The notes under the pieces are model-generated. The model was not told where the DNA came from. It saw only the letters and a list, made by a program, of their open reading frames with translations, and made no database searches. Position numbers and translations under genes: made by a program. Of a DNA stretch of 64,000 nucleotides, positions 4,926-64,000 are shown in pieces; position 1 is the first letter of the stretch; every line of letters starts with the position of its first letter. Source of the DNA: Xenorhabdus nematophila ATCC 19061 (GTDB taxonomy: Bacteria > Pseudomonadota > Gammaproteobacteria > Enterobacterales > Enterobacteriaceae); the NCBI RefSeq assembly GCF_000252955.1, contig NC_014228.1:4124701-4188700 (forward strand), read 5' to 3'.

Positions 4926-6125
4926 TTATTTTGTCATTCTCGTTTCAGCGTCATTGAGTGCGGCATCTACTGTTTGGCGTCCGCTAATTACATTGAGAAT
5001 CGCGCTACGCATTGCATACCAGAAACTGCTCATTTGTGAAATGTTCGGCATAATTTCGCCTTTTTGGGCATTTTCCATCGTGGCAGCAATACGGGGATCT
5101 TTTTCGAGGATTTCCTGATAAGATTTCAACGCCACAGCGCCCAACGGCTTATCTTTATCCATCATTGCCAAACCTTCGTTTGTAAGCAGGTAATTTTCCA
5201 GAAACTCTTTCGCCAGTTCTTTATTGGGACTGGCTGCGTTTATTCCCGCAGTTAAAATGCCGACAAAAGGCTTAGAAGGTTTTCCTTTAAACGTTGGCAA
5301 TGAGGTAACACCATAATTAATCTTACTTTTATCTATATTCGACCATGCCCATGGTCCATTAATAGTCATCGCTGTTTTACCTTTGTTGAAGGCGGCTTCA
5401 GCAATGGAGTAATCAATATCAGCATTGAGATGCTTGTTTTTGACTAACTCAACCAGAAATTGCATTCCTGTTTTAGAACCAGAATTATTCACACCACTAT
5501 CTTTAACGTTATAGGTACCGTTTTCCGCCTTAAAAGCATATCCTCCATCAGCTGCAATTAATGGCCAGGTGAAATAAGGCTCCTGCAAATTAAACATAAT
5601 CGCGCTTTTATTTTGCTTTTTCAGTGCATTATCTAAGGCAGGGATTTCTTCCCATGTTTTTGGGGGAGATTTGATCAAATCTTTATTATAGATAAGGGAA
5701 AGTGCTTCAACTGCAACAGGATACCCCATCAATTTTCCATCATAACGAACGGCATCCCATGTAAAGGGAAATAGCTTATTGACAAAAGCGCTATCAGGTG
5801 TAATTTCAGCGACCAAACCTGATTGGGCATAACCACCAAAACGATCATGTGCCCAAAAAATGATATCCGGCCCGTCTCCGGTAGCTGCGATCTGAGTATA
5901 TTTCTCTTCTAATTTATCGGGGTGCTCAACAGCGACAGGAATGCCAGTTTCTTTTGCAAATTTCTCACCGACCTGAGCCAGCCCGTTATAACCTTTATCG
6001 CCGTTAATCCAAATCACCAGCTTGCCTTCTTCAAGCTTTGCAAACGCAGGAGCAGACAGCATCCAAGTCATTAAAACAGAAAGCATCAGAGTGCGGGTGC
6101 CCACTCTCAAAATTTTTTTGGTCAT
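4926..6125 (-). CDS. malE: Periplasmic maltose-binding protein
   Basis: Binds maltose and maltodextrins in the periplasm and hands them to MalFGK2. The 399-residue precursor starts with a basic n-region and a hydrophobic core ending in APAFA, a standard signal peptide cleaved before [11 protein letters not shown], which is nearly identical to the mature E. coli N-terminus. An upstream in-frame ATG (6194) would add 23 hydrophilic residues before the signal peptide, so I use the ATG at 6125. First gene of malEFG, divergent from malK. Confidence 0.97.
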
Positions 6126-6297
6126 TATTCCGCCCTTTTTATCATTTGTCAGTTCAGGATGACTTACTTTATTACTAACTGTTGCATTACTCATTACTTC
6201 ACTGTTGTTTTACTGCATGACTAGAAAATGTTTCTCAGTGTGCTATCAACGAGGAAAATACTCATCCTCCCTTGCTCTACGCCTTAAGCAATATGGA

Positions 6298-6313
6298 TGT
6301 GAACTGGCTTACA
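6298..6313. promoter_or_regulatory. Putative CRP site 1 (malE/malK)
   Basis: TGTGA-N6-TTACA differs by one base from the TGTGA-N6-TCACA consensus and lies within the divergent maltose promoter region. Confidence 0.5.
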
Positions 6314-6360
6314 AAAACAATTAAAATCAGCACGTTAATACCAAGATAACGTCATTTTTC

Positions 6361-6375
6361 GTGACTAAAATCACA
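6361..6375. promoter_or_regulatory. Putative CRP site 2 (malE/malK)
   Basis: GTGA-ctaaaa-TCACA is a near-perfect CRP half-site pair with the correct 6-base spacer, placed between the candidate MalT boxes. Confidence 0.6.
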
Positions 6376-6580
6376 TCTTATTTGACAATTTATCCTTCAA
6401 GCTCCCTATAACATTAATCTCTTCATACTGATCCCTCCCCCATAAAAAACTCTGGGATGGAGGATTTTTATACCTGTTCTTTTGTACACAATCCTGCCAT
6501 CAGTTTTTGACTGGATGCCTGACTACGGTGAATAGGAAGCAAATAGAAAACTGAGCTGGCAAATCCGAGGGAGGGAGCAC

Positions 6581-8980
<2,400 letters not shown>

Positions 8981-8981
<1 letters not shown>

Positions 8982-9952
8982 TGAAAAATAAATTACTTTC
9001 GCTTTGTTTCGGCACTTTGCTTTGTAGCCTAATACCTTCTGTAAGTTATGCCGTATCAGATACGGCTGAATCTGATACAGTAATGGCTAATAAAACAGGA
9101 TCTGGCATAGAGACAAGTGCTATTGCGCCAGTTTTGTCCCTGCCAACCTTACAGAAGTTGCAGTGGCAACCAATTCATACTCAAGCTACACAAACTATTA
9201 GCCTTAATAGTTCATCGCAACAGCTCAATGCTGAAAATATCCGCGGGGCAATAGCTGCATTTGCTTTACCCGCTAATCAAGGTTCATTGGAAGTCACGCT
9301 AAATAGTCTGGTTAAGGATAAACAGGTATATTCGCCAAATGTTTTAATACTTGATGAACAAATGCGTCCTGCTGCCTTTTATCCAAGTCATTATTTTCGC
9401 TATCAACAACCGGGTATTATGTCTGCCGACAGACTGGAAGGCACATTAAAGTTAACTCCAGCATTAGGGCAACAGCGAATTTATCTGCTGATTTATACTA
9501 CCCTTGCTGATTTGAAGACTGTCACACAAATGACTGATCCCGCTAAAGCCTATGCTCAAGGAGTCGGTAACGCAGTACCCAATATTCCAGACCCCATCGC
9601 TCGTCATACAGAAACAGGCTCATTAACCCTAAAAGTCAAATCAGAACGTGACGCCGGCAATATATTGATTGGTCAGATATTCTCTGCATCAGCACCAAAA
9701 CCGGTAACCGTCGGCTCTGCACAGGCAATATCTGCACCTGTAGCCGCACCGACTACAGATATATCGCAATCTGTTGCATCTGCAACTAAGCCAGTGCTGA
9801 ATGATACCGAACTGTATTTTAATGACGCGATAAAAAAAGCAATTAGCCATGGTGATATCGATAAGGCATTAAAGCTTTTGGATGAAGCAGAACGTCTTGG
9901 CTCGCCCACTGCACGGGACACTTTTATCAAGATGATAAAAACCAAAAAGTAA
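8981..9952 (+). CDS. malM: Maltose operon periplasmic protein MalM
   Basis: Periplasmic protein encoded at the end of malK-lamB-malM in enterobacteria; its role is unsettled. The 323 residues begin with a signal peptide (basic MKNKLLS, hydrophobic core, cleavage near SYA). A Ser/Thr/Ala/Pro-rich linker (about residues 245-275) and a short C-terminal helical domain follow. The ATG overlaps the lamB stop by one base, so translation is probably coupled. Slightly longer than the E. coli homologue (about 306 residues). Confidence 0.93.
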
Positions 9953-9994
9953 TTTTGATTTACCAAAGTCTTATTAGTGAAGTTTCATATTTAA

Positions 9995-10024
9995 CTTAAG
10001 AGCCTAAGGGAGTAGGCTCTTAAG
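9995..10024 (+). terminator. Hairpin after malM
   Basis: A perfect 12-bp stem (CTTAAGAGCCTA / TAGGCTCTTAAG) with a 6-base loop lies 42 bases after the malM stop. There is no U-run after it, so it may be a stabilising or partial terminator. The 11-mer CTTAAGAGCCT recurs in direct orientation at 12505-12515, just beyond the IS cluster. Confidence 0.55.
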
Positions 10025-10178
10025 ATGAAACGCTATTTTTGTCTCGGATAAGATTCTATTAACTTAAGTTATCAACATTACATTCACTTAAAATTATCCA
10101 TAGAGTTTTTCTTAAGTTAATCAGATAAATTATCTGCATTACTGTTACAATCGATAACCTGATTCTCTGCCTGTTCTT

Positions 10179-10369
10179 ATGAACTCGAAGATAATACTTT
10201 CTGAGCCTGAACGAATCACATTGCAACAACTTGCTTTGAATCATCCACATCGGGACATTCGTACGCGAGGAACGGGTTTGCTCATGCTTGCCAGAGGGAT
10301 CAAGCCGTCCCAGATCACCGCTGAAATAGGATGCAGTCTCCGGGTTATCTATAATTGGGTTCCGGTAAT
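10179..10369 (+). pseudogene. IS630-family transposase, N-terminal fragment
   Basis: The first 60 or so codons encode a helix-turn-helix region (RGIKPSQITAEIGCSLRVIYNW) typical of the DNA-binding N-terminus of IS630-family transposases. Similarity stops at 10369, where the IS3-family element begins; the remaining frame belongs to the IS3 end. No catalytic DDE part is found on the far side of the IS3 element, so the rest was lost. Transposition-defective remnant. Confidence 0.75.
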
Positions 10370-10395
10370 TGTCAACATAGTTGGCACCCTTGAAT

Positions 10396-11407
10396 TTAAG
10401 CAGCCTGTTTTTCTCGCTCAGGATTCAGGGCCACTGTGCCCACCCATTGCCAGTTTCTTGTGCTGCGCGACCAGCGTTCCGGATGTATGAGCTTAGCTTG
10501 GCGATAAACGGCATCCCGGTGTTTTAAAATCATTTTGTCTTCACCTCTGTGCCGTTGGCCCGGTGTCACATAATTTATCCCACTATGACGGTGTACTTCG
10601 TTATACCAGCCGGTAACGTTATCCCCCCAGAGACGCGTTTGGGTCAGGTCACTGAACCCTTCTTCCGGCCACGCCGGCACATATTTCAGCGTCCGGAACA
10701 ACGATTCCGCATAGCCATTGTCATTGCTGACCCGTGGCCGGCTGTGTGAGGGAGTAATAGCCAGTTCCTGCAGTTTGATCTGCAGAGTTTGAGATTTCAT
10801 CGCCGCCCCATTGTCCGCATGCAATACCAGGGGGTTATGCCCGCATTTTTCCTTCCAGACCGTGCGCTGAACCAGTTCCGCCGCGAGCTCCCCCTTCTCG
10901 GCTTCATGGACTTCATAACCCACGATTTTCCGGCTGAAAATATCGAGTATCATATACAGATAAAACCAGCGGCCTTTGACTGTTGACGGGAGCCACGTAA
11001 TATCCCATGCCCAAAGCTGATTGGGGGGCGGTAGCTGTCCATGTGGTCGGTTTGCCGCTTTTGTGTGCCGTCCGCTTCCGTCCCCGGTGATGAACCTCAC
11101 CATGGCGTCGTAATACCCGGTAAAAGGTAGATTCACTCGCCAGATAGACACCGTTATCGGCCAAGCGTGGCACGATTTGGGAAGGGGGCAGGCGGGCATA
11201 TTCCGGCTGGTGACACACGGCCAATATCTGTTCCTCTTCTTCTGAGGTTAATCGATTTGCCGGCTCAGGCCGGACAGCCTGCGGACGCTGAGCTTCCGGA
11301 TGCGTTTGCCAGCGCCGCCAGGTGCGCTGGCTCAATGGGATCTCGTTGAGCGCCACCCTCAACCGAGCCCCGGCACCGACGGCTTTGCGCACCGCATCCT
11401 TAATCAC
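10396..11407 (-). pseudogene. IS3-family transposase orfB, frameshifted
   Basis: Encodes the rve-type integrase core with the DDE triad visible as WDIT (first Asp), HADNG (second Asp) and NGYAESLF (Glu). The N-terminal helix-turn-helix part (residues from MIKDAVRKAV to about HHRGRKR) and the catalytic part are in different frames. They switch near 11080, consistent with one inserted base in a GGACGG stretch. Functional transposase is not expected without recoding. Confidence 0.85.
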
Positions 11408-11427
11408 CTGACGCTCCTCCGTACAGG

Positions 11428-11910
11428 TCAGTCTTCCTCGTTGTCCATCCCGAAGTGTGCCTGCAACGTCTTTCGCAAAACCAGTATCGCTGCCGCCTCC
11501 GCCAGGGCTTTTTCCTTCCGGGCCAGCTCACGTTTCAGTTGTTTGTTTTCTTTCTGGCTTTGTTTTAATGCCGCCTTATCGTCACGGGCGGGCACGTGTC
11601 AGAACGCCTGTTTCCACCGCTGAATTTGCTCAGGATAGAGCCCTTTTTTACGGCAATATTCAGCCAATTCGGTGGCACTGAGTGTAGCCGTTTCAATAAT
11701 GACCGCCAGTCGGGCTTCTGCGGGCCATTGTTCTGGAGTTTTGTCTGCGCCGGGCACGGGCTTTCCTTCTGCTTTTGCCTGATTACGCCAATTATACAGG
11801 GTAGCTTCCGATATGCCTTCCATCTGTGCAACTGAGGCGACAGTCATGTTGTACGGTGGCAGCAATTTAGCCAGTGCCGCCGATTTTCGTTCAGGTGAAA
11901 TACGGGTCAT
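11428..11910 (-). pseudogene. IS3-family transposase orfA with internal TGA
   Basis: Starts at the ATG at 11910 (MTRISPERKSAALAKLL), a helix-turn-helix protein typical of IS3 orfA, about 160 residues. An in-frame TGA at 11599-11601 interrupts it at codon 104, just before a Lys/Glu-rich leucine-zipper stretch (KENKQLKRELARKEKALAEA) that continues in the same frame to 11428. A point mutation is the simplest reading. Confidence 0.8.
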
Positions 11911-11956
11911 TTTTTTCTCTATCAGTGTTGTTAATGGGGGGACAACTATGCTGACA

Positions 11957-12493
11957 GAGAGGGAATCCATCACTCGCCGAACCAACCGTTCCGAAGTGCT
12001 GGCTCTGATTTGTCGGCGTAATGGCTATGAATTTCGCTTAATTCGTCGCTGGTTTGCCGAAGAAAAACGCTTTTGTCTCTGGTTGAGCAACTTGTCCGTG
12101 GAAGAGTTTACGGCTAATGACATCATGGATATTTATCGTTGCCGCTGGCAAGTAGAACTGCTGTTCAAAGAGTTAAAATCACACACAAACTGGCATGGAT
12201 TTGCCACGAGAAAAGAAACGTTAGTCACGGGCCTCATTTGGCTGAGTTTGCTGGCTCTGTTGCTCAGACGTTCGCTGGCCAGAAGATTATTCCCCGCCGT
12301 TTCATTGCTCAAAGCAGCCCAAAATACGGAAGTCTGGCTGTGGCCCATCATCGAAAACCTACTCCAAAGGGCGTGGTCGGAAACCTGTTTTTGGCTGGAA
12401 AAAGCCCAAGCGTATTTATGTCAGAACGCGTTCAAAACACCACAAAGAAAATCATGTAAATACAAGATACAAGACATTGGATGCGTGTTTTGA
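11957..12493 (+). pseudogene. IS4-family transposase, C-terminal fragment
   Basis: The frame carries the IS4 signature Y-(2)-R-(3)-E-(6)-K in YRCRWQVELLFKELK and ends naturally at 12493. The N-terminal half, with the first two catalytic aspartates, is missing because the IS3 element abuts at 11956. Fragment only. The apparent upstream extension of this frame lies inside the IS3 element and is fortuitous. Confidence 0.8.
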
Positions 12494-12646
12494 AAGGCTT
12501 AATTCTTAAGAGCCTGTATATGAGTTGAACTATGCCCTCAAATATTTTGACAACTTTTCCCACTCTAACTTGATAAATCTTACTATTTGTTTTTTGGTTA
12601 GTCCTGAACGGGGTAATAGGGTAATTTACTACTTAAGAGCATTTGG

Positions 12647-13510
12647 CTAGATTATTTGTGTATAGAAAGCAATATTTGGAATGAAGGTCTTTAACTTTCC
12701 ATAAAAGTCTTTTCTTAATATTAAATCACAACCTTCTAGCCTTGAAATATTGGAGTCTAAGCCAACAAAGGAAGCCCCTTTTCCGATTAAACTTTCTCTC
12801 CAGCATCGATATATCAAAACTGCTTCACCATTTTCATTTAGGGCTCTAAGTCCGTTATCATAACAATCTAGAATCAGGCCTAATATACTCAGCAGTTCAC
12901 CATTCATCCAAATAACTTGTGCTGCCTCTAAGCTATTGTCATTAATACAGAACCCTTGGATAGCTGGGGTTCCGTAACAGTATTCATCTTTCCAAATATC
13001 TTGAGTATGCGGAAAACTTTTCAGGGGGTTCATTTTAATTTTCATAGGTAGACAACCTTCACATACCACTGCGTGATTGCCTTTAGTGTTGCGGCCATAA
13101 TCCCTAGCTTCAAATTGACGCTCAAATCTAGCAATGACAACAAAGTCGTCTAATTCGTCAGGAGCACTGAATCCAGTCGATTTATCAATCGGCTTTACTA
13201 AGTTGGGTCTACTAATGAGAGAGTTAGATGTTGCAATCATTGTTTTAACATCTATTTTTCCGTCACCTTCAAAAATGACCGATTCCCTATCTTGTTGATA
13301 TAAAAATTCATTTACATGCTTAAAAACTAAATCATAGATATAAGTGTTCGGAGAAAGCATACCGCAGGATCTATTAACAAAGTGCTTAAATTCATCTTCA
13401 TTAAAATTCTGCATTATTGCGTTATTTACGTCGTCCCTATCAACCCCTAAGGCATCTAAGTATCTGATGAATTTGGAGTTGTTGATTAAGTTCATGATAT
13501 TGCTATTCAT
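12647..13510 (-). CDS. Unknown protein, partner of the adjacent nuclease
   Basis: A 287-residue protein that I do not recognise. It is acidic, lacks a signal peptide or clear membrane helix, and has a CEGC pair near the middle (HAVVCEGCLPMKIK). The ATG overlaps the end of the upstream gene (GAATAG with ATGAAT), so it is translationally coupled to the nuclease-like gene. That coupling and the AT-rich composition suggest a two-component cargo module of the island. No P-loop, kinase, methylase or helicase motif is visible. A substrate-sensing or immunity role would be a guess. Confidence 0.7.
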   Translation of the reverse strand: MNSNIMNLINNSKFIRYLDALGVDRDDVNNAIMQNFNEDEFKHFVNRSCGMLSPNTYIYDLVFKHVNEFLYQQDRESVIFEGDGKIDVKTMIATSNSLISRPNLVKPIDKSTGFSAPDELDDFVVIARFERQFEARDYGRNTKGNHAVVCEGCLPMKIKMNPLKSFPHTQDIWKDEYCYGTPAIQGFCINDNSLEAAQVIWMNGELLSILGLILDCYDNGLRALNENGEAVLIYRCWRESLIGKGASFVGLDSNISRLEGCDLILRKDFYGKLKTFIPNIAFYTQII

Positions 13511-14856
13511 TACTTAACTCGCAAAAAATACTCTCGACTTCATTATGTATGTACAAATTTTGCACCCCTATGAGTTTTCCAATAGATGGCTTTATCTCTA
13601 GCAACAATGGTTTAAGCTGCTCGATTTCAATCGATATAAGCTCAAGGATTGAGGCGATAGTTGAGTGATGGAACAGATGAAAGTTATTGAAAAACCAATT
13701 AAGAGGTTTCATTAAAAGGTTAGTGTAATTCTTCACCAAGTAATTTAGCGCACAAATAATCTCTCGTTGAACTGATGAATCTAGGTTATTTGCTTTACTA
13801 AGGAGCAATGTAATTGCTCTTTCATCATCATTCATCTCAGATATTTCAATGTAATTTAAACTTTCCCATTCAAATTCACTTTCGTCTGGTAGTCTACTTT
13901 TTATGAAATCAAAACCTGTTTCATACATTGATAAAATAGACTGTTCATCGAAGCCAACGCATTCGAATGCAATAATTAGGTTAGCTGTTGTCTTGCAGGG
14001 CGCGAGCATACTTTGATTAATATTTGAACTTAAAATGTCAATCTTGTTCTTTAATTCTTTAGTTTTCTATAAAAGTCTAAAGAATTGCCTGTGCGATTAA
14101 ATTTCACTCGATAAAAACACTATTAAAACTGAACATTAAGAGATAATCATCTTAAAAACGCAGCTAAAATAGTGTGCTCGCGCCCTGTGTTGTCTTGGAC
14201 GAAAAATCTTTGTCTTTTAAAAAGGTATATAAAACTGAAGCTAAACAGTTTTTCGCAAAATCTATGTCAATCGTAACTGCTTGGAGTAATGAGTCCTTGT
14301 CAACAAAACTGGAAAACCATCCGTCTTTTGAGTAGACGAAATTGTAAATCAATAATATTACTTTATTTTTATTTGAGAGGGGAATTCCTTGAATCAACCA
14401 TCTCAAATTTGTAAAGTGTTCATGTCCTAACTGAAATCTTTTTTTGATAAGAGGAAGAAGTATTTCATTTGCCAGTTTTGTATTGTTTTCTTCCTGAAAA
14501 AAGAAATCTAAACATAACCTAAATTCAGTATGAGTAGTGTTAAGTGCTTTCCATGATTCATATAGCTTATGTAATGCTATCTTATAGTGGCTATCGGCAG
14601 AAAGGTAATCTTTGGTTAGCCTTACAGATGTCTGTTCATTACTATATTTTACTTGCTTACGTTGTATTTTATCCCCGTTAGTTATTACTAAGTCATCGAA
14701 TCTATCCGGGGTATCACCTTTCGTATGCTTCTTGTCTATTGAGAATATGCTTTCTCGATTGCCGTTGAGTATCTCTTCTAGTATGAAATAGCTAGATATC
14801 AGATCTTGGTAATCATATCCTTCATGCGCATTATTTAAGCTCAAACTGTTCCTCAC
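13503..14856 (-). pseudogene. Cap4-like dsDNA nuclease-domain protein, split by a MITE
   Basis: The gene starts at GTG 14856 (preceded by CCAAGG). The N-terminal 223 codons resemble the dsDNA-nuclease domain found in Cap4, Avs and ABC-3C-type defence proteins: an early AHEGYDYQD segment, then DRFDDL (Asp51-Asp55) and QRKQVKYS (Gln68-Lys70), fitting a D...(E/Q)xK core. At 14187 a 192-bp insertion brings a stop. The frame resumes at 13994 as KTTANLIIAFE and runs to 13503. Removing the insertion plus one 10-bp repeat (202 bp) restores a single 383-codon frame. The C-terminal 160 residues are helical and unassigned. Fragments could still be made separately. Confidence 0.8.
13996..14187. mobile_element. 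MITE-like non-autonomous insertion, 192 bp
   Basis: The ends are inverted repeats: CAGGGCGCGAGCATACT at the left and CAGGGCGCGAGCACACT read inward from the right (16 of 17 identical). The insertion is flanked by a perfect 10-bp direct repeat TGTTGTCTTG at 13986-13995 and 14188-14197. The AT-rich interior has no reading frame of note. Precise removal repairs the host gene, which is strong evidence for insertion by a transposase acting in trans. The parent IS family is not identified; the 9-10-bp duplication limits the candidates. Confidence 0.9.
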
Positions 14857-14863
14857 CTTGGAA

Positions 14864-15028
14864 TTAGTATAGGGTGTAAACCGCTTTGCAAAATTCTTTC
14901 GCTGTAATATTTTGAAGTTCGTCAGCGTATTTAATCATTTGCAGGTGCAGGTGCAGCTCAGCCATGCAATGGTTGCGGGGAGCTCTAGCCAGGGCCTGGC
15001 GAATTGCCAGAAATTTATGCTCTTTCAT
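14864..15028 (-). CDS. Small unknown protein (54 aa) upstream of the nuclease gene
   Basis: ATG at 15028 to TAA at 14864, encoding a basic, His-rich helical peptide (MKEHKFLAIRQALARAP ... KEFCKAVYTLY). It ends 7 bases before the GTG of the nuclease-like gene on the same strand, which suggests co-transcription. The abrupt C-terminus could mean truncation of a slightly longer small regulator. I cannot name a family. Confidence 0.5.
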   Translation of the reverse strand: MKEHKFLAIRQALARAPRNHCMAELHLHLQMIKYADELQNITAKEFCKAVYTLY

Positions 15029-15105
15029 CTGTACTTTTTAGCTTCTTGTCGCACTGTTAGCAAAATTAGCTAATCTTGCAAATGGTTTGGCTCACCCTTG
15101 GTAAT

Positions 15106-15123
15106 TTTCACATGTGAAAGTGC
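15106..15123 (+). repeat. 18-bp inverted repeat with palindromic core, copy 1
   Basis: TTTCACATGTGAAAGTGC. Its exact reverse complement occurs at 20546-20563. Each copy has a palindromic core (TTTCACATGTGAAA). The pair brackets the whole recombinase cassette: copy 1 lies 6 bases past the stop of its last gene. It could be a recombinase site or element end, or an operator. Confidence 0.75.
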
Positions 15124-15128
15124 AAGCG

Positions 15129-15389
15129 TCAAAGCCTAAAACCGTGATGTGAGCCGTCAGGTAGGTCAACATGAAAGCGGAGTTTTCCTCCACCTGATTC
15201 AACAAGCTGTTTCAACTGCTGCAAGCTATCGACTGTATGGTCATCAATGTTGCTGCTTGCATCAGCCCCGATGCGCTTTAGTAGCTCGATCAGATGAAGA
15301 TGAATCAACTGCTTTGACGCTATCTCTTCGGCGGCGTGAACAACCTCTTGAGGTTGCTCTGCAATGATGTCTTCAAGTTTTCTACCCAT
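15129..15389 (-). CDS. Small unknown protein, last gene of the recombinase cassette
   Basis: An 86-residue protein, largely helical, ending in GGGKLRFHVDLPDGSHHGFRL. This is reminiscent of the beta tail (GGKL...FPDG) of some XRE-type antitoxin regulators, but no full helix-turn-helix is obvious. It follows the GmtX-like gene by 47 bases on the same strand and stops just inside the inverted repeat at 15106. Function unknown; a regulator or excision accessory factor is possible. Confidence 0.55.
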   Translation of the reverse strand: MGRKLEDIIAEQPQEVVHAAEEIASKQLIHLHLIELLKRIGADASSNIDDHTVDSLQQLKQLVESGGGKLRFHVDLPDGSHHGFRL

Positions 15390-48987: not shown

Positions 48988-50251
48988 TTTCCGGCTCTCT
49001 TTGATAAGAGGTTGAGAATTTAACTTTCAGTGTCAGGTTATCGTAATGAATATCTGAGATAAAATATATATCAGGAAAGCCAGACTGGCTTATTCATCTC
49101 CACAAACGTCAAATATTTAAACACAACTATAAAAGTTGCAGATAGCCATAATCCATCCGACTTTTTCTTATTTTTTCTGCAATACATGGATGTTGAGTAC
49201 ATTCCGATAAAACTGACAGACATAAATCATATTGTACTGAAAACTCCCCGCTCAGGTCGGAAAAGATCAATAGATGAAAATAGTTTATTACGCGTGGGGA
49301 TAAATCAGGGTAATTGTTTGCCAGTACACATAAAAACCAATAAATAATTCCATAAAATAACCTATCAATACAGAACATTCTGATATAAAAAAGATGCAAA
49401 AATTGGAATAAGGATAGGTGTATTTTATCAACAACGACATACTGCCATATTTACCATTTTCTATGACAGTATTGATGTGATATTTTTGAGATATATATTT
49501 ACTCACTTTATGAAGATATGTGTCACTATTGTTGTATTTAATATGATGCTTTAAATGGAAACATCCCTTATTAACGCGTAATAAGAGTAAATGTCATCAT
49601 GGCTAAAAAAATTAAGTGTGGTTTGGTTATAAATAATGGAATACATGTGAATTATCTGCGGTTTATTTCATTATACGAGTAAGCTAGCCATATATTCTTT
49701 TCTTTATTTTTATCAGTTAGATCATTTATACAATAGTTTCGTAGTATGATATTTTAATTTCTATAGTTTTTGGTGTTGCCTTAAGTAGATTCTCAATAAA
49801 TTAACGTTATCAGTTGATAGCCTGATGTTCATTATTTAATTCTCGATGGTAGTCTCAATTGAATGACAGATAACATAATCATAACCAGATCATCTTCATG
49901 ATGTATATATCTATTTAAAACTTTAGTGAAACAAGTAAATGAGTGAAACTAGTAAAGCGATCATTTAAAAAATGAAGGGGGGTTGAAGGGTATGGATAAC
50001 AAGAGAGCTGCTTGTTTTGCATTGGGAATACGAAGAGGCTTATTAGTTTTCATTGAAATTATTTTGTAATGAAATTAAAACATAATGATAATCAATCTTT
50101 TGCTTATTGCACCCTTATTAACTAACATTTTATTAGTTAACATTCTGGCAGACTGACCTGACAAGACCTTTGGTAAAACACGAAGTTAAAATGCTATCAC
50201 CATGAATCTGTAATGTTTTGTCGTTATTTAACAATCATTGGGCGAAAGAAC
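48988..50251. other. AT-rich intergenic region upstream of murQ
   Basis: About 1.26 kb with the murQP promoter but no secure gene. Two overlapping minus-strand frames at 49127-49399 and 49288-49506 might be halves of one decayed small gene, because the first has a protein-like C-terminus (AEKIRKSRMDYGYLQLL). I found no motif to support it. Confidence 0.4.
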
Positions 50252-51077
50252 ATGGATATACGCAATCTTGAAGCTTTTATCGTTTTGGCTGAAACGCTTA
50301 ATTATCACAAGGCTTCGCAGAGGCTTTATCTCTCTCAGCCGGCTTTATCGAAGAAAATACACGGGTTGGAAGATATTCTTGGCGCTTCACTATTTACAAG
50401 GGGGCCAAATGGAACAAGATTGACAGATTTCGGGCAGAAGACGCTGGAAAATGCCAGAAAATTTTTAACGCATTATGAACACTTTAAAAGTCAGGTTCAT
50501 TTTGATTCAAGAGAAGATATGGTGAGGTATTTATATATCGGTTCTTGTTTTCCTATCCATAATTATTCTCAAATAGAGAAGCAGATTGCGGAGAAAAAGG
50601 GGAATGTTGCATGTTGCTGTTATGCCCTTGGCCTCTATGACACAATTAGAACCGAAAAAGGTGTTTACGGAAAGATTGGTTTATATCTTTAAAAAAAGAA
50701 GTCATTTAATTTATAAGTTTAAAACCGCGTTAAGTAAGTTTGGAAATGGGATTGTTACGACAAATTCAGCAGATAAGAAAGAAGTGGCTGAGTTAACAGA
50801 TTGCCTTAATGTTTTTCCTATTTATACTGGTGACAATATGAATTTGCTATTAAAGACAAATGATATCATGTTGATTATTGAGATGATTACAAAAAATAGT
50901 GCCTATACGTGTGTTCCCCGGCGGATCCTTGGCTCTATTCCTGAGTATTATATGAATTTTTTGGAATTCATTGAAACGGATAAAAAAATTGATCTGGGTG
51001 TTGTGTGGGCAAATTCAATTGATAACCATTTGCTTGATGATGCCGAGAATTTTTCCACCTTGGTTGCCGCGGTGTAA
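50252..51077 (+). pseudogene. LysR-type regulator, frameshifted
   Basis: The first frame encodes a clear LysR N-terminal helix-turn-helix (MDIRNLEAFIVLAETLNYHKA; QPALSKKIHGLED). After about residue 113 the coding sequence switches frame: GMLHVAVMPLASMTQLEPKK ... VPRRILGS ... IDLGVVW continues to 51077 as an effector-binding domain. Removing one base from the AAAAAGGGG run at 50594-50602 would give one 274-residue frame. Single-base slippage (or sequencing error) is likely. Its target is unknown. Confidence 0.8.
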
Positions 51078-56901: not shown

Positions 56902-56964
56902 ATGAACAAATCAGTTGAAATTTTCTGCTATATCAATGATTTTTATCGTTTCTTTATGCCTTAA
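56902..56964 (+). pseudogene. IS982-family transposase, N-terminal scrap
   Basis: Twenty codons (MNKSVEIFCYINDFYRFFMP) resemble the start of IS982-family transposases, preceded by about 80 bp of probable IS end. The frame stops where an IS256-type fragment begins. Confidence 0.5.
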
Positions 56965-56965
56965 T

Positions 56966-57209
56966 AGGAGCTTTGGCTCAGTGTGCTGACGGAACTCAAT
57001 CATCGTGGCTAAAAGGGTTCCCTGAAGCGATTAATACCGTTTACCCGCAAACCCGAGTTCAACTGTGCATTGTTCATACGATACGCAATAATCTGCGTTA
57101 TGGCTATTTGGGTCTGAGCTTTTTAAATGACGAAGCACGGTATTTAGATCAATCTTTGCCAATTGAATGTTCTCCAAATAGACAGACTATACATGATTCA
57201 ATAAATTGA
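56966..57209 (+). pseudogene. IS256-family transposase fragment
   Basis: ADGTQSSWLKGFPEAINTVY and the following PQTRVQLCIVH match the well-conserved middle of IS256/Mutator transposases, but only about 50 codons remain. The rest of the frame is unrelated. No ends or duplications seen. Confidence 0.7.
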
Positions 57210-57853
57210 TGTCACAACCAGTGTCTTGAAAAAATTAATTATTAAGATCCAGTATATGGATTTAGGACTAATTTATTTCATTAAGTTATTTTTCAACTAA
57301 AAAACCATTATGAATTTAATTTATTATTTAAAGTTGTAAATTTATTTTCTGGAAAGTCTTATTTCATTAAGATTGGATAAAAAACACCATTTTCAAGAGT
57401 TGCTCCTGATTTCAATAATCACTTTTTACGCGTAAAAGTAATTTCATTCACTATTATGGCGTTCTATATTTTATTTTACATCATAAAATATGATATTTGT
57501 CTTATAAAAGAACAATAGAGATACTGTATCCGATATCCCGCACCGTATTTATAATTTATTGTTTCAATCAAGAATTGTTATCTGTATGAAAAATTTGAAT
57601 TTACTGATAAATCAAAGTATTAAATAATTGGGTGTGGAATATCGGCTGCATGTCATATTTCATTGAAAATGTGATCGTTAACAATGATATTTTAATTTAT
57701 TTCGTATACATTACTTGTCGTATTTATATGTAGTAATATTGATTGTTATATTTAGTAGTCCTTTTTAAATTACCTGCGTTAGTTTAACGATATGATGGTG
57801 TCGTGTTTGACCGATGAACCGACCTGTCCTTACAGGAGAAGGAAGACTTTAAT
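57210..57853. promoter_or_regulatory. Upstream region of the biosynthetic operon
   Basis: About 640 bp of very AT-rich DNA with no gene, and the only apparent place for the promoter of the six-gene operon. AGGAGAAGG at about 57834-57843 is the probable ribosome-binding site of the M28 peptidase gene, rather far from its ATG. No operator can be named. Confidence 0.5.
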
Positions 57854-59239
57854 ATGAACAGCACTACTAAAAATATATGTATAAAATCCACTTTGCCTTT
57901 TTCTAAAAGCTCTCTATGTCTTCTTGTCGCAGTAGCCTCTTTATTTTTTCCAGCCTTTGCAACTGCAACAATAAAGGATACAAATTCAGTCATAACAAGC
58001 AGTAAAGTAGATAATGTACTGCAACACATTCAGAAACTTCAGGAAATATCAGATAATAATGGAGGTAATCGTGAAGCAGGAAGCAATGGACACGCTGAAT
58101 CAGTACAATACTTTTCCGAGCAGCTTCGCAATGCAGGTTTGAAAGTCTGGACCGAGAAATTCGAATTTCTATATAGCAAAGCCGAACATGCACAATTGAT
58201 GAACAACGGAAAAATGCTGGATCTCGTTCCCGCAATGTTCAGTTCATCGACACCTGGGCCTATTAGTGCCCCTCCACACTTCATCGGTGGAAACGGATGC
58301 GAAAAACAACAGTATCTCGATGTGCCTCGTGGATCAATCGTCATCATACAAGAGTCAACTCATTGTACTACGCAACATCAACATTTGTTGGCCAGTGAAT
58401 CGGGAGCCCGAGCAGCTATCATTGCTTCACATACAGATACCCCTTTATATATATTGCTGAAGGGCACCAGATATCTAGACATACCCCTAGTGGGAATAAG
58501 CCATCCTACTTACATCAAAATCCATTCCGATCCATCTAGTTTGATGCTGGACGTTCTGATGATCACAGAGCGTAGGTGGAGCATGAACCTCATTGCCGAA
58601 AATACTGGAACAAATAACTCTCCAGCAATTGAAGTTGGTGCACATTTAGATTCAGTTCCTCAAGGTCCTGGGATCAATGACAATGCTACGAGCGCGGCAC
58701 TGCTGTTAGATCACGCGATAAGTCATGCTAATCAACCAAAATCTAGAACTTATCGATATATGTTTTGGAGCGCCGAAGAATTTGTATTCGCTGGTTCATG
58801 GAGCTATCTCCAAACTGTGACAAAACCAGACAGCATTTATGCCTACGTGAACCTGGAGATGCAAACATCCCCAAACTCAGGATATTTTTACACCCAAGAC
58901 ACTAGTGGCGGAAATGTCAGCCAAAAGATCTCGAACAGTATTATAGAAGCTTACCAAAAACTGGGCATTGAAGCAGAAGTCGACACTAATACAATCCCTC
59001 GGTCTGATGATTCAAGTTATAAAGATGCTGGAATTCCCACAGGGGGACTCTGGGGAGGATCGTTTGAAATAAAGACTCGTGAGCAGGCTATCAAATGGGG
59101 AGGGCAAGCAGGTTACCCATTCGATGGCTGTTATCATCGTCAATGTGATAATTATGGGCATGTTGATCAGAATAAATTGTATAAAACACAATTTGTTCTT
59201 CACCATCTCCTCGCAAAGCTGGATCATGCACATGATTGA
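57854..59239 (+). CDS. Secreted M28-family metallo-aminopeptidase with PA-like insert
   Basis: A 461-residue precursor with a long signal peptide (hydrophobic LCLLVAVASLFFPAFA, cleavage near AFATA), a protease-associated-type insert (about 125-235) and an M28 domain like Streptomyces griseus aminopeptidase. Zinc ligands are visible at His264 (GAHLDS), Asp276 (GINDNATSA), Glu309 (SAEE, with Glu308 as base) and His428 (CYHRQC). The second-zinc Asp of the usual NxDM motif is Glu here (VNLEM, Glu335). First gene of the operon; its stop overlaps the next start. It may trim a secreted peptide or activate a prodrug, which is inference. Confidence 0.85.
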   Translation: MNSTTKNICIKSTLPFSKSSLCLLVAVASLFFPAFATATIKDTNSVITSSKVDNVLQHIQKLQEISDNNGGNREAGSNGHAESVQYFSEQLRNAGLKVWTEKFEFLYSKAEHAQLMNNGKMLDLVPAMFSSSTPGPISAPPHFIGGNGCEKQQYLDVPRGSIVIIQESTHCTTQHQHLLASESGARAAIIASHTDTPLYILLKGTRYLDIPLVGISHPTYIKIHSDPSSLMLDVLMITERRWSMNLIAENTGTNNSPAIEVGAHLDSVPQGPGINDNATSAALLLDHAISHANQPKSRTYRYMFWSAEEFVFAGSWSYLQTVTKPDSIYAYVNLEMQTSPNSGYFYTQDTSGGNVSQKISNSIIEAYQKLGIEAEVDTNTIPRSDDSSYKDAGIPTGGLWGGSFEIKTREQAIKWGGQAGYPFDGCYHRQCDNYGHVDQNKLYKTQFVLHHLLAKLDHAHD

Positions 59240-60701
59240 TCAATTAAAAGTGACTGTTGCCGCTCTCATTCGACGCCCAGAGGATGGTGCAATTTATCTA
59301 CAGCAACGACGTTGGGATTGCAAGGTACTGCCTGGTGCTTGGGATGTTGTTGGCGGAAAGGTAGAAGAAGGCGAAAGCGAACTTCAAGCTCTTGATCGAG
59401 AGATTTTTGAAGAGACAGGATGGCAGCTAACCCGAATCATCTCCGAACTTGGAGTAGACGAATATGACTTACAAGGCGACAGATGGATCGAAAAGAGTTT
59501 TCTTGTCGAAGTAAACATAAATGAAGCCGAACAGAATATTGAGCTTGATAAATACACTCATGCTCGATGGTTCCTTACCCAAGAAGAAATTCAATCATTC
59601 CTACAGGTTAACCGTTTCTTAGGCTACGGTGAACACATCTGCAATATTGCTACGCGCGCACTTTCAGAAAGTCGCACACTCTCTGAAAATATACGAGAAA
59701 TCTCTGTGTCTAACCGCACCTTGCATCCACTTCAACTTGCAGTTATCGGTGCAGGAGGAAAACAAGCTGCCGAATTCTTAACACATTACTCCCGAGGAGA
59801 GGTGATTGCTGCAGTTGATATCGACATCGAGGCTAGGCGTCGTACCGAAGGAATGGGGTTACAGACATTCACCTCTACTGGTGAGATGCTCGAAAAAAGC
59901 AAAATTAATGTGGAGGTGGCCTATTTGGCTGTTCCGCACAAATATCACACTGAACTTGCTATCCAATTACTATCAAAAGGAATTAGTGTATTAAAGGAGA
60001 AACCCTTCGCAGTTACAAGCAAGGAAGCACGAGAATTATTCCAAATTGCCAGTGAACAATCTACGCCTGTGTTCACTACTGCTCATCGTCCTTTCCGGCT
60101 AATAGGGAGACAGCTTAAATCAAGCCTCCATCTTCTCGGACAGGTGTATGCATACACGTATGAGTACTCACTATCGATTCCTGATCGAACTAGTGGATGG
60201 CGTTCAAAATGGGTCTCTGCACGAGGTGGAGTGATGCTGGATATGGCCTATCATCAGCTAGATTTTATTGTCTGGCTACTGGGTGAGCAGAAAATTGAAT
60301 CTGCCCAGATCGCATACTGTTATGAAGAGACAGAAGCCGAACAGTTAGAGGACACGAGCACAATCCTTACCAGTTCAATCAGTGGTAATGGCGCAGGAAG
60401 AATCATAACCAATCGTCACGCACATCAGAAAACCGAACTACTGACACTGTATGGTTCACAAGGCATTGCAGTGATGAGCGACTCTATACTCCATATCTTT
60501 GACCGCCAGGGGAACCTCAGATGGGAGGTTCGTGAGCCCCAGGGAGGGCAATGGACAATCAAAGCCATGTACCAAGAGTATCTATCTAACCGTAATAACC
60601 CACTGTATTGGTTGCCTCATATGGAACGCCACGTGCACATCGTTGACTGCCTCACGGAAGCCTATGCCATTACTTTTAGTACAAACACAGTACAAACATA
60701 A
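59232..60701 (+). CDS. Nudix hydrolase - Gfo/Idh/MocA oxidoreductase fusion
   Basis: A 489-residue two-domain protein. Residues 5-145 are a Nudix domain with a complete Nudix box (GKVEEGE-x7-REIFEETGW, about 42-64). Residues 168-489 are an NAD(P)-dependent sugar dehydrogenase of the Gfo/Idh/MocA family with GAGG (173-176), KEKPF (255-259) and GGVMLDMAYHQLD (332-344). The start ATG overlaps the M28 stop by 8 bases (an ATG two codons earlier is possible); a longer opening would run inside the M28 gene. The dehydrogenase probably makes a keto-sugar for the next enzyme; the Nudix part could release or clean up a nucleotide-linked substrate. Confidence 0.85.
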   Translation: MIDQLKVTVAALIRRPEDGAIYLQQRRWDCKVLPGAWDVVGGKVEEGESELQALDREIFEETGWQLTRIISELGVDEYDLQGDRWIEKSFLVEVNINEAEQNIELDKYTHARWFLTQEEIQSFLQVNRFLGYGEHICNIATRALSESRTLSENIREISVSNRTLHPLQLAVIGAGGKQAAEFLTHYSRGEVIAAVDIDIEARRRTEGMGLQTFTSTGEMLEKSKINVEVAYLAVPHKYHTELAIQLLSKGISVLKEKPFAVTSKEARELFQIASEQSTPVFTTAHRPFRLIGRQLKSSLHLLGQVYAYTYEYSLSIPDRTSGWRSKWVSARGGVMLDMAYHQLDFIVWLLGEQKIESAQIAYCYEETEAEQLEDTSTILTSSISGNGAGRIITNRHAHQKTELLTLYGSQGIAVMSDSILHIFDRQGNLRWEVREPQGGQWTIKAMYQEYLSNRNNPLYWLPHMERHVHIVDCLTEAYAITFSTNTVQT

Positions 60702-60713
60702 AGGAGCAGACAC

Positions 60714-61949
60714 ATGTCTGAATTTGATATATACCAGTTCCCGCATGATCCATGGCCTCCAGCCCCAACCCCAGAAGAGGAAAATGAATTAATTTTACAA
60801 CGACGCACGGACATCTCGATCAGTGGTCGAGTGGGTCCAATTGCTCAATTTGAAAATGAATTCAAATCGTTCTTAGGAAATAAGGTTAAGCATGCAATTA
60901 CATTCAATTCCGGAACAAGTGCGCTTCAAGCTGCATATTACGCACTAGGGGCTCGCAGAGGGATATCGGTTCTCGGACCGGCATTAACCTATCATGCAGC
61001 ACTTAGCCCTGCCTTTTCCGTGGGAGCTGAAGTTATTCTGGTCGATATAAACCAAGAGTCCCGGTGTATCGATATTGATGCTGCAGAAAAAATGATAACT
61101 GAATCGTGCCGTATATTAACTGTGGTACATCAGTGGGGACATCCTGCCGATATGGATAAAGCTATCAAGTTTGCTGAAAAACACAACCTTAAGATTCTAG
61201 AGGATTGTTCCCATGCGCATGGCAGTAAGTTTCGAGGGCGTCCGGTTGGTACGTTTGGTGATGCCGCAGTCTTCTCCCTGCAAACCAAAAAAGCCGTCTT
61301 CGCGGGTGAGGGTGGTATTCTTGTCACGAGCGATGACCTTGTTGCCGACACAGCGACTCTGGTAGGACATTATCGCGATCGAGCACGCAATGAGGTTAAA
61401 GATAGGGATCTTCAACAATATTGGGTTACCGGCTACGGCCTGAAGACACGAATGTCTCCATTCAATGCCATCGTTGCGAGACACAGTTTGCGCGCGTTCT
61501 CGCAACGCATGAAGTTTCGCCATAAGTGGCTACATCGTCTCAATAATTCACTATCGCTAACAGATATATTTGAACCCATGAAAATCTCCCCGCACGTTGA
61601 TATGGGGGCTTGGTATGGTTTTAAGCCTCTCATCTCACGTGCTGCGCAAAAGTTAATTGGCCGGGACCACTTGGTGAAAATCATGCAGGAAAAAGGTTTG
61701 GATGTGTCTGCTCCCTCTGGAGAGGTTCTTGCCGATCAACCACTATATTCAGCTCCTAGACATATTTGGAATCATGAACCTAGATGCGTCCAACCGATAA
61801 GGGAATTACTCCCTGTCGCATATGATGTTTCCGAAAGAGCAGTCTCTTTTCCAACTTTTTATCGTGAAGAAGATGAGCCCTTAATAGCTCGTTATGAAAA
61901 GACAATTGCCGAAATTGACCTAAAATATAAGAGGTTATTAAAAATATGA
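60714..61949 (+). CDS. DegT/DnrJ/EryC1-family PLP aminotransferase
   Basis: A 411-residue sugar or cyclitol aminotransferase. FNSGTSALQAAYYALG binds the cofactor phosphate, ILEDCSHAHG holds the ring-contacting Asp164, and SLQTKKAVFAGEGG places the Schiff-base lysine at Lys193. An unusual Pro-rich N-terminus (FPHDPWPPAPTPEEE) precedes the fold. AAGGAG lies about 8 bases before the ATG. It likely aminates a keto group made by the upstream dehydrogenase. Relatives act in aminocyclitol, AHBA and kanosamine pathways; the exact substrate cannot be read from sequence. Confidence 0.88.
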   Translation: MSEFDIYQFPHDPWPPAPTPEEENELILQRRTDISISGRVGPIAQFENEFKSFLGNKVKHAITFNSGTSALQAAYYALGARRGISVLGPALTYHAALSPAFSVGAEVILVDINQESRCIDIDAAEKMITESCRILTVVHQWGHPADMDKAIKFAEKHNLKILEDCSHAHGSKFRGRPVGTFGDAAVFSLQTKKAVFAGEGGILVTSDDLVADTATLVGHYRDRARNEVKDRDLQQYWVTGYGLKTRMSPFNAIVARHSLRAFSQRMKFRHKWLHRLNNSLSLTDIFEPMKISPHVDMGAWYGFKPLISRAAQKLIGRDHLVKIMQEKGLDVSAPSGEVLADQPLYSAPRHIWNHEPRCVQPIRELLPVAYDVSERAVSFPTFYREEDEPLIARYEKTIAEIDLKYKRLLKI

Positions 61950-62650
61950 AAAATATCGAGTTAGATGTGTTCCAAGAAGATCCGAACGATGCAGAAAAAG
62001 TACTCATACGAGCCTTGCATGACACAGACTTCCCTACTGAATTTAGTCTGCTTGGACGGCAGTGGGAGCTTATTCGTGGCGTTTTCCCTGGGACACTCAC
62101 AGGTGCGACTGAAGTTATGGCAAGCGCGCTCCCCTATCCAGTTGGTGGGCGTATGCTAGAAGTAGGCTGCGGTTCGGGGGTGATCTCGGTAACTGCTGCT
62201 CTAAACGGAGTTTCAGAAGTCGTTGCATTAGACATCAATCCTAACGCAGTAACTAATACACTTAGAAATGCGATCCGGCATGGTGTAGAGACTAAGGTTT
62301 CCGCCCGTGTGAGTGATGTATTCTCCGCGCTCGAAATGACTGAAGACTTCGACTTAATTTTCTGGAACGTTCCATGGACTTATGTCGATGGTGACTTTGA
62401 TATGGCGAGTGAATTGCACGCTGCGGTATTCGATCCTGAATACGCTGGTCAACGCCGTTTGATCCAAGGAGCTTCAGCCTACTTGCGAAAAAATGGCCGC
62501 CTACTCATAGGCACTGCTGACCTCAAAAATGGAACTGTGCTGGAAGCTATCGCAAAAAGTACATCAGCCACATTGTCGATGGTTCAGCGTATTCGTCGAA
62601 TCGAAGCACCTCGCGTGATGGAATACCACCTAATGGAGGTGTGTTATTAA
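61946..62650 (+). CDS. Class I SAM-dependent methyltransferase
   Basis: A 234-residue methyltransferase with motif I LEVGCGSGV (71-79), an acidic residue in ALDINPNAV (Asp96) and NVPW (141-144) in place of the NPPY seen in PrmC/HemK-type N-methyltransferases. The tail lacks membrane or carrier domains. ATG overlaps the aminotransferase stop by 4 bases. It probably methylates the amino or hydroxyl group of the pathway product. Confidence 0.85.
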   Translation: MKNIELDVFQEDPNDAEKVLIRALHDTDFPTEFSLLGRQWELIRGVFPGTLTGATEVMASALPYPVGGRMLEVGCGSGVISVTAALNGVSEVVALDINPNAVTNTLRNAIRHGVETKVSARVSDVFSALEMTEDFDLIFWNVPWTYVDGDFDMASELHAAVFDPEYAGQRRLIQGASAYLRKNGRLLIGTADLKNGTVLEAIAKSTSATLSMVQRIRRIEAPRVMEYHLMEVCY

Positions 62651-62651
62651 C

Positions 62652-63449
62652 GTGAAACTCAATAGCGGAGATGATCTCCGTCTAGCACAGCGAGTTGCAG
62701 TGGAAGCAGCCACAACAGCTCTTTCTTTAAGAGAATCTGGTGAATTTCAAGTCACTTTAAAGAAAGATGGTAGCCCAGTTACCCCTGCGGATATTGGTGC
62801 TGAATTGCGCGTACGTGAACTTATAGAATCCGAGCGCCCTAATGACCTATTTGTTGGGGAAGAGAGCGGAGGTCTGGCGGTTCAGAAAGGGAGAGTGTGG
62901 ATTATCGACCCGATTGATGGAACCAAGAACTTCGTTCGCGGAATTCCTATCTGGGCCACACTTGTGGCGCTCGTAGAAGATGGAGAACCCAAGATCGGTG
63001 TGGTTTTCGCTCCTGAATTGAAGCGCTGTTGGTGGGCAGAGAAAGGTAGTGGTGCATACGTTAGCAAAAGTCCGCAAGGAAGTGGGAACAGAATGCATGT
63101 ACGGCAAGCTTCAGGTCTGAAAGATGCATACATATCAACCACGGCATTTGATACATGGCATAAACAAGGTTTACTTCAGCAATATCAGCGTTTGGCCGAG
63201 CAGACATTCTGTAACCGTGGGTTTGGTGATTTCTTGCAGCACTGCTTAGTTGCCGAAGGAATATTAGATGTTGCCATAGAGCCAATTGTAGCTCCTTGGG
63301 ATGTAGCGGCACTCGTCCCAATTGTCGAAGAAGCTGGCGGAATATGCACCGATCTAATGGGCCAGCCTGTTCTAGCGAACAAAGGAGTGGGAATCGCGTC
63401 CACCAGTCAGACTTTGCACAAACACGTAATTGATATATTTGGAGAGTAA
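62652..63449 (+). CDS. Inositol-monophosphatase-family phosphatase
   Basis: A 265-residue Mg-dependent phosphatase of the IMPase/HisN type. GSPVTPADIGAE, GEESGG (Glu70-Glu71), IDPIDGTKNF (Asp86, Asp89) and the C-terminal WDVAALVPIVEEAGG carry the metal ligands. The start is GTG at 62652, one base after the methyltransferase stop. In this setting it probably dephosphorylates a sugar or cyclitol phosphate. Histidinol phosphatase is the family alternative but is unlikely outside a his operon. Confidence 0.87.
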   Translation: MKLNSGDDLRLAQRVAVEAATTALSLRESGEFQVTLKKDGSPVTPADIGAELRVRELIESERPNDLFVGEESGGLAVQKGRVWIIDPIDGTKNFVRGIPIWATLVALVEDGEPKIGVVFAPELKRCWWAEKGSGAYVSKSPQGSGNRMHVRQASGLKDAYISTTAFDTWHKQGLLQQYQRLAEQTFCNRGFGDFLQHCLVAEGILDVAIEPIVAPWDVAALVPIVEEAGGICTDLMGQPVLANKGVGIASTSQTLHKHVIDIFGE

Positions 63450-64000
63450 ATGAATATGATTGTCCGGGAATCTAAAGAAATATCAGAAATACAGTTGGTG
63501 CGTTGCGTACAGACGCTGACACGCGCTTTCGATGGATACTCCTTAATGCGGCATTTCCTCGCTGAAGATGATTACCAGCAACGAGTACGGCGCTATCAAG
63601 AGACTTTTCTTAGAAAGGTAGGTATGACAGTAGGTCACGTATGGGCTGCTGATGATGGAGTCGCTATATCAATATGGACGGCACCCGATATTGAAGACGC
63701 AGAGGCAACTTTCGCTCCTCTATCTATCGAATTTGGAAAAATAGCAGGAACGAGAGAAAAGGTAATGCGGGCGTCTGAATCTATCATGGCTAAAGAACGG
63801 CCCAATTTTCCATGCTGGTTCCTGGGGGCAGTGGCAGTGGATCCATATTACCAGGGGAAAGGGTTAGGCCGTGCTGTTATTGAACCTGGCCTTGAGAGAG
63901 CCGAGCGTGAGGGATTTCCTGTGTTCCTTGAAACTTCCGATGACAAAAACGTAAGGATCTATGAGCGCTTGGGATTCGAGGTGACAGCAGCATACCAACT
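63450..64000 (+). CDS. GNAT-family N-acetyltransferase, 3'-truncated by the window end
   Basis: An open frame starting with the ATG immediately after the phosphatase stop and running 183 codons to the window end. The acetyl-CoA site is PCWFLGAVAVDPYYQGKGLGRAV, with typical C-terminal NVRIYERLGFEV. The N-terminal half (RAFDGYSLMRHFLAEDD) resembles GNATs of secondary-metabolite clusters. It could tailor the product or give self-resistance by acetylating an amino group. The final residues and stop lie outside. Confidence 0.88.
   Translation, partial: MNMIVRESKEISEIQLVRCVQTLTRAFDGYSLMRHFLAEDDYQQRVRRYQETFLRKVGMTVGHVWAADDGVAISIWTAPDIEDAEATFAPLSIEFGKIAGTREKVMRASESIMAKERPNFPCWFLGAVAVDPYYQGKGLGRAVIEPGLERAEREGFPVFLETSDDKNVRIYERLGFEVTAAYQ

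Follow-up and report, generated by a model that had tools for sequence, protein, structure and literature searches.

The 64,000-nucleotide stretch of the Xenorhabdus nematophila ATCC 19061 chromosome analysed here (NC_014228.1, positions 4,124,701 to 4,188,700; hereafter the window) ends in a compact operon that begins at position 57854 and continues past the right edge, and that very likely stems from actinobacteria and represents a reduced puromycin/cystocin-type (cst/pur) cluster for an aminonucleoside antibiotic. The operon has lost the S-methyltransferase gene cstA and the dedicated tRNA-Cys found at the end of related clusters, while its coupling enzyme gene, cstB, is under purifying selection. 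Tentatively, and with slightly less than even confidence, we regard this as a natural loss-of-tRNA experiment, in which an actinobacterial tRNA-Cys that had crossed phyla was lost together with cstA in one Xenorhabdus clade with CstB still being selected. The sequences document the gene content, homology, intact motifs, and losses. New in this analysis are two points, namely that cstB has stayed under selection although cstA and the tRNA are gone, and that the cluster tRNAs share an ancestry; the kind of cluster itself has already been published.

Gene content and relatives of the cluster

An earlier reading of the sequence alone (the original prediction) had described the six genes inside the window as a closely spaced, same-strand operon encoding an uncharacterised amino-sugar or aminocyclitol-type pathway with a secreted peptidase. 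Its layout is borne out by the open reading frame (ORF) list and by Pfam: all six frames are open, lie on the + strand, and carry the domains named, with spacings of -8, +12, -4, +1, and 0 bases, followed by +2 bases to a seventh gene beyond the window. The extension to the right that had been proposed with the prediction was carried out in a 20-kb region (L002) including 12 kb rightward of the window, and yielded this seventh gene, which encodes a CstB/Pur6-like synthetase of 708 aa (64052-66178 in extrapolated window coordinates; L002:7753-9879), and behind it remnants of cstA and of a tRNA-Cys.

The first gene (57854..59239, + strand) encodes a NapH/CstI-like M28 peptidase with a PA domain (PF04389, E 1.2e-32; PF02225) and intact metal-ligand motifs, which is 35% identical to the M28 protein of the Streptomyces locus L027, has an N-terminus that by eye resembles a signal peptide, and is a probable N-acetyl-aminonucleoside hydrolase. 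It is followed on the same strand by a Pur7-Pur10 (CstH-CstG) fusion of a Nudix hydrolase and a Gfo/Idh dehydrogenase (59232..60701; Pfam NUDIX and GFO_IDH_MocA; Nudix box and EKP motif intact), a Pur4/CstF-like DegT aminotransferase (60714..61949; PF01041, E 3.7e-66; 54% to L027) with an intact pyridoxal-phosphate lysine motif, a Pur5/CstE-like MTS methyltransferase with an NVPW motif (61946..62650; PF05175; 61% to L027), a Pur3/CstD-like IMPase-family phosphatase (Inositol_P; 62652..63449; PF00459, E 1.8e-51; 49% to L027; motifs intact), and a GNAT N-acetyltransferase resembling CstC and puromycin N-acetyltransferase (PAC), which extends from 63450 to 64049 and hence past the window end at 64000. 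This GNAT matches the puromycin N-acetyltransferase of PDB entry 7k09 with E 1.6e-49 and 82/180 identical residues; since the L027 GNAT shows no difference from 7k09 (178/178 residues compared), L027 was taken as a puromycin cluster.

When genome contigs were scanned with the Nudix-Gfo/Idh protein, nine loci emerged. Six of them matched the Nudix part only; the loci of X. bovienii T228 (L003, 87%), Nocardiopsis kunsanensis (L004, 58%), and Streptomyces silaceus (L005, 30%) were taken into further comparison, along with L027 and two other Streptomyces loci, L028 and L029. According to tblastn, the M28, Nudix, Gfo/Idh, DegT, IMPase-like, GNAT, and 708-aa families co-occur in all six (one Xenorhabdus, one Nocardiopsis, four Streptomyces), which is far beyond chance. 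The MTS (Pur5-type) methyltransferase is present in five of them and was not found in L028 by tblastn. An O-methyltransferase is additionally present in the four Streptomyces loci; for that of L005 (dmpM-type), tblastn at E 1e-6 found no counterpart within the 20 kb of L002, the rest of the genome not having been searched. The seven proteins of the window strain are 79-91% identical to their T228 counterparts. As an aside, the product of the Streptomyces pur-type cluster L028 (genome G377, 6001-15275) may be devoid of the N6-dimethyl group, given that no Pur5-type enzyme was found there.

The window strain accordingly holds the Pur6/CstB synthetase, PAC/CstC, the Pur10/Pur7/Pur4/Pur3 core, Pur5, and the NapH/CstI M28 hydrolase of the class, for which the roles of Pur10, Pur7, Pur4, Pur3, PAC, and NapH in puromycin and cystocin biosynthesis have been described in published work, with NapH removing a protecting acetyl group. 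The Streptomyces pur clusters (L027 and L005) share counterparts of NapH, Pur7, Pur10, Pur6, Pur4, Pur5, Pur3, and PAC, but their Pur6-type protein is only 27-29% identical, pur6 precedes pur4, and they possess an O-methyltransferase that is missing from the operon here. Closer relatives are known from Pur6-guided genome mining, which is described as having returned both puromycin clusters (including that of S. silaceus) and a second architecture with a tRNA-Cys at its end (including N. kunsanensis and X. bovienii; PMC11641026). The same account names the S-methyltransferase CstA, the Pur6-like CstB, the PAC-like CstC, and CstD-CstI, and reports cystocin itself, identified by mass spectrometry (MS) and nuclear magnetic resonance (NMR), from a Streptomyces strain (PMC11641026). 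In X. bovienii and N. kunsanensis, the cst-like cluster comprises the same seven functions in the same order as here, with the fusion in T228 and two separate genes in Nocardiopsis; the window strain differs in that cstA is deleted, the tRNA-Cys is truncated, and the chromosomal site is not that of T228. The cystocin cluster of Streptomyces sp. VKM Ac-502, likened here by its published description rather than by sequence, shares the CstB-CstI set but is described with Pur7 and Pur10 equivalents as CstH and CstG, with cstA present, and with an MS- and NMR-identified product (PMC11641026). For X. bovienii T228, a puromycin cluster was moreover listed by antiSMASH (PMC10371910). The label "uncharacterised" does not hold, and the puromycin/cystocin match largely turns the neighbourhood into a known, characterised cluster, an outcome that had been named in advance as speaking against the original prediction.

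The fusion of Nudix and Gfo/Idh domains was encountered in the window strain, in T228, and, among the 8000 best candidates scored, in four database clusters (P0008-P0011) at 87-94% identity, two of which are named Xenorhabdus and one of which may be the T228 type; the next-closest matches in this set were Gfo/Idh proteins without a Nudix domain, apart from one remote fused protein (P0018). Pur7 and Pur10 are two separate genes in all actinobacterial loci examined (5/5), lying in different frames in L004, L005, and L029 and in the same frame with a stop between them in L027 and L028.

The amino-sugar or aminocyclitol product of the original prediction appears extremely improbable. A small-molecule pathway with oxidation, transamination, dephosphorylation, and methylation stands, but by homology the substrate class is a different one and the product would be a 3'-aminonucleoside antibiotic. 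The Gfo/Idh, DegT, and IMPase-like set does follow the logic of the NtdCAB kanosamine pathway, which however acts on a sugar phosphate, uses an HAD phosphatase, and involves no nucleoside, PAC, or CstB. Matches to sugar and inositol dehydrogenases of NCBIfam exist below cut-off, for example, 57.6 versus 355 bits for iolG, and the dehydrogenase fits no sugar/inositol dehydrogenase equivalog; UDP-GlcNAc 3-dehydrogenase was considered and rejected, as NF040723 scored 64 versus 450 bits. No NCBIfam model listed for the operon proteins reaches its cut-off (for the methyltransferase, among the best 25), the closest approach being HisN histidinol-phosphatase on the IMPase-like protein with 258.9 versus 275 bits. 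Against a free amino sugar stand the PAC match, the presence of CstB, and the gene-by-gene correspondence with the puromycin cluster. The prediction was well aimed, however, in ascribing the processing of a conjugate to the exported hydrolase and self-protection to the GNAT, which by homology correspond to NapH and puromycin N-acetyltransferase, respectively. With a cluster of this type, this insect-associated bacterium is predicted to make a translation inhibitor, and what would probably be misread as an amino-sugar pathway is set right.

Another scenario, which we consider very unlikely, is that the pathway ends at a free 3'-aminonucleoside. A precedent is the adg operon of the related nematode symbiont Photorhabdus luminescens, which makes aminodeoxyguanosine (ADG) and is described as consisting of an MFS gene and homologues of pur10, pur4, pur7, and pur3 only (PMC9239236). 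These four homologues also occur in the cluster analysed here; as described, however, the five genes include no Pur6, PAC, NapH, or Pur5, and both base and target are different (PMC9239236). CstB, the PAC-type GNAT, and the NapH-type hydrolase are retained and open in the window strain, which argues against such an end point.

Loss of cstA and the cluster tRNA-Cys

Two features of the cystocin subtype are absent here, namely the CstA S-methyltransferase and the tRNA-Cys at the cluster end. T228 harbours cstA and three tandem tRNA-Cys, and Nocardiopsis cstA and one; the T228 copies (L003:17583-18051, at the cluster end) are spaced 198 bases apart and look like an amplification of the dedicated tRNA. 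In the window strain, 52 bases behind cstB (66190-66241 extrapolated; L002:9891-9942) match the T228 cstA end, spacer, and tRNA start (blastn 87% over 53 columns), and comprise the end of cstA and a 23-base piece from the start of the cluster tRNA-Cys (23/23 identical to the tRNA 5' end). Because this stub region corresponds to the cstA end, spacer, and tRNA start of T228, the loss is a deletion and not a primitive absence. The same scar occurs in the related genome G017, where it is followed by an IS110 transposase fragment (NF033542, E 6e-8, below cut-off).

Relocation within the genome finds no support: cstA was not found by a protein search of the own genome, nor was a complete cluster tRNA-Cys found elsewhere in it. 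As a positive control, a search of 30 Xenorhabdus genomes recovered full-length cstA in T228 only (genome G004, whose contig and position coincide with those of G032, from which L003 comes), with weak partial matches (28-33%) to methyltransferases in five of the other 29. ARAGORN and Rfam called no tRNA after cstB, and the stub was also considered as a functional tRNA-like RNA, a candidate rejected on the basis of ARAGORN, Rfam (E up to 10), a folding z of -0.73, and the IS110 fragment at the same break in G017. Nine relatives of CstA are present in the protein collection (one from X. bovienii, one from Nocardiopsis, seven without organism), and the CstB database cluster with a 708-aa X. eapokensis representative has 14 member sequences, which were not inspected singly; this difference suggests, without proof, that several Xenorhabdus strains are devoid of cstA. 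The open-access literature searched on puromycin, cystocin, and aminonucleosides together with Xenorhabdus contained no report of cstA loss. However, tRNA-Cys-like structures at the ends of such clusters are indicated for Photorhabdus temperata and for further Xenorhabdus, X. nematophila among them, in Figure 2C of PMC11641026, whose authors may already have seen tRNA remnants such as this stub.

The cluster tRNA probably travelled with the cluster genes, since that of T228 is closer to its counterpart in the Nocardiopsis cluster (88%, or 87% when the third copy is taken) than to the housekeeping tRNA-Cys of T228 (64%). The identity of the T228 cluster tRNA to two chromosomal tRNA-Cys of Nocardiopsis is 71% and 68%, and the Nocardiopsis cluster tRNA in turn shares 78% and 77% with these two and 80% and 75% with two tRNA-Cys of S. 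silaceus. In PMC11641026, the additional tRNA is instead described as something that Xenorhabdus incorporated to adapt the cluster.

All seven genes of the window strain are open with intact motifs, and the ratio of nonsynonymous to synonymous substitution rates (dN/dS) against T228 is 0.09-0.18 across them. Between the cstB copies of the window strain and G017, 24 synonymous and 12 nonsynonymous differences were counted (binomial p 6e-8 against neutrality), demonstrating purifying selection on cstB. Because G017 shares the scar, cstB remained under selection once cstA and the tRNA had been lost, provided that the scar predates the split of the two copies. Between the same genomes, the synonymous divergence (dS) is 0.50 for the neighbouring gene fkpA and 0.05 for cstB, a tenfold difference that probably reflects a recent passage of the cassette from one species to another, either by transfer or through recombination at the same site.

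The coupling enzyme and the predicted product

The 708-aa protein has no Pfam match and is 83% identical to its counterpart in T228, 53% to that of Nocardiopsis, and 27-29% to four Streptomyces proteins. All of the CstB/Pur6 proteins compared (11/11) carry His223, Cys285, and four further cysteines, C566, C569, C593, and C596. In a midpoint-rooted tree of these 11 sequences, the window-strain protein groups with those of T228, X. eapokensis, Nocardiopsis, and three database entries against the four Streptomyces proteins (support 100/100); by its sequence it belongs to the cst-type group, a feature of the cystocin subtype. Matches to the family were found in 3/30 Xenorhabdus genomes, 1/246 of the family sample (the own genome), at least 9/392 Streptomyces genomes (four full-length), and at least 1/396 of the phylum sample (the Nocardiopsis genome itself), the latter two being lower bounds because scoring was limited to two candidates in each genome. 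Open frames of 634-921 codons in five further Streptomyces genomes (loci L030, L031, L032, L035, and L036 from G187, G292, G308, G191, and G050, respectively) match mainly the Cys/His core of CstB/Pur6 and are possible uncharacterised relatives of the coupling enzyme; G187 has two such frames near each other, and tblastn found no other cassette gene in the 12-20 kb fetched for these loci.

The following pathway can be proposed. The Gfo/Idh half of the fusion would oxidise ATP at the ribose 3' position and the Nudix half would remove pyrophosphate, either before or after amination of the 3' ketone by the DegT enzyme. The MTS methyltransferase would dimethylate N6 of the adenine, which is the role of Pur5, and the IMPase-like enzyme would remove the 5' phosphate. 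CstB would then load the 3' amine with an aminoacyl group, probably cysteine that it takes from Cys-tRNA through Cys285. As long as the product is inside the cell, it would be acetylated by the GNAT; outside, the exported M28 enzyme would strip the acetyl group, giving an antibiotic that would terminate translation. Transfer from aminoacyl-tRNA through a cysteine thioester is a hypothesis put forward for Pur6/CstB in PMC11641026.

Given the loss of both cstA and the dedicated tRNA-Cys, the window strain would likely draw on host Cys-tRNA. The product would be S-desmethyl-cystocin, a cysteinyl aminonucleoside without the S-methyl group, to which we assign about an even chance. The cluster itself is probably active in this strain. 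If the loss-of-tRNA reading is true, CstB works with the host tRNA pool, and the clade makes either this new free-thiol aminonucleoside or an analogue with another amino acid. How the amino acid is coupled in puromycin biosynthesis still awaits an explanation. A close cluster without this tRNA beside that of T228 with three copies makes the tRNA requirement directly testable.

The GNAT pocket offers a further hint at the aminoacyl group. At two PAC positions close to the puromycin O-methyltyrosine, CstC is described as having F/F (PMC11641026). The corresponding positions are L/Y in the window strain, G017, T228, and Nocardiopsis (4/4), whereas in five pur-type rows (7k09, L005, L027, L028, and L029, with 7k09 and L027 representing one sequence) the first is A and the second L, L, L, I, and A. 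A bulky L/Y pocket would fit an aminoacyl group smaller than O-methyltyrosine. That CstB of this clade attaches another amino acid and forms a new puromycin analogue without cysteine is quite unlikely: the joint loss of both cysteine-linked parts, tRNA-Cys and S-methyltransferase, would be explained, but the enzyme is very close to that of T228, which retains tRNA-Cys, and the two pocket positions are the same in both.

Several points weigh against S-desmethyl-cystocin and an active cluster. The pocket residues are bulky but not the F/F of PMC11641026, where the first position is A31 (A32 in the count used here). The cysteine specificity of CstB cannot be read from its sequence, and a PDB search with a CstB profile found no relative of the gingipains (best E 0.73), whose fold is attributed to CstB in PMC11641026. 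The operon contains no Pur8-like exporter, leaving export unexplained, and none of the literature searched reports that a Xenorhabdus makes a metabolite with such a cluster. PMC11641026 furthermore argues that Xenorhabdus needs the added tRNA, which the window strain is without. Finally, cstB of G017 (L034:7636-9762) contains an in-frame TAG, the rest being 98% identical to the window-strain copy, and decay has thus begun in at least one relative. This TAG, the deleted cstA, and the truncated tRNA would also be expected of a dying remnant that makes no antibiotic and slowly decays. We nonetheless consider such decay unlikely for the window strain in view of its seven open genes with intact motifs, the excess of synonymous changes in cstB relative to the scar-sharing G017, and the size of the CstB cluster represented by X. 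eapokensis.

Chromosomal site and borders

The cassette is located between slyD and slyX-fkpA, a site that is empty in T228. In a survey of 30 Xenorhabdus genomes, one of which gave no match, slyD adjoins slyX-fkpA without space for a cassette in 27/29 genomes in which the locus was found, T228 included. Downstream of the 708-aa gene, slyX, fkpA, yheO, tusDCB, rpsL, rpsG, and fusA follow (named by eye from the sequence). The left border agrees with the insertion-sequence scraps and AT-rich leader noted in the original prediction: an IS256 transposase fragment (NF033543, E 1.6e-9) occupies 56940-57206 on the + strand, and AT-rich DNA precedes the first gene (30% GC in the 1-kb bin 57001-58000). 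Directly upstream of this gene, 57662..57853 (+ strand) is 77.6% identical over 192 bases to the corresponding stretch of X. bovienii T228 and is probably the promoter or leader of the gene. Further to the left, a LysR-type regulator at 50213-51077 of the window is seemingly split across two overlapping frames (by eye, from the ORF list) and is possibly a pseudogene.

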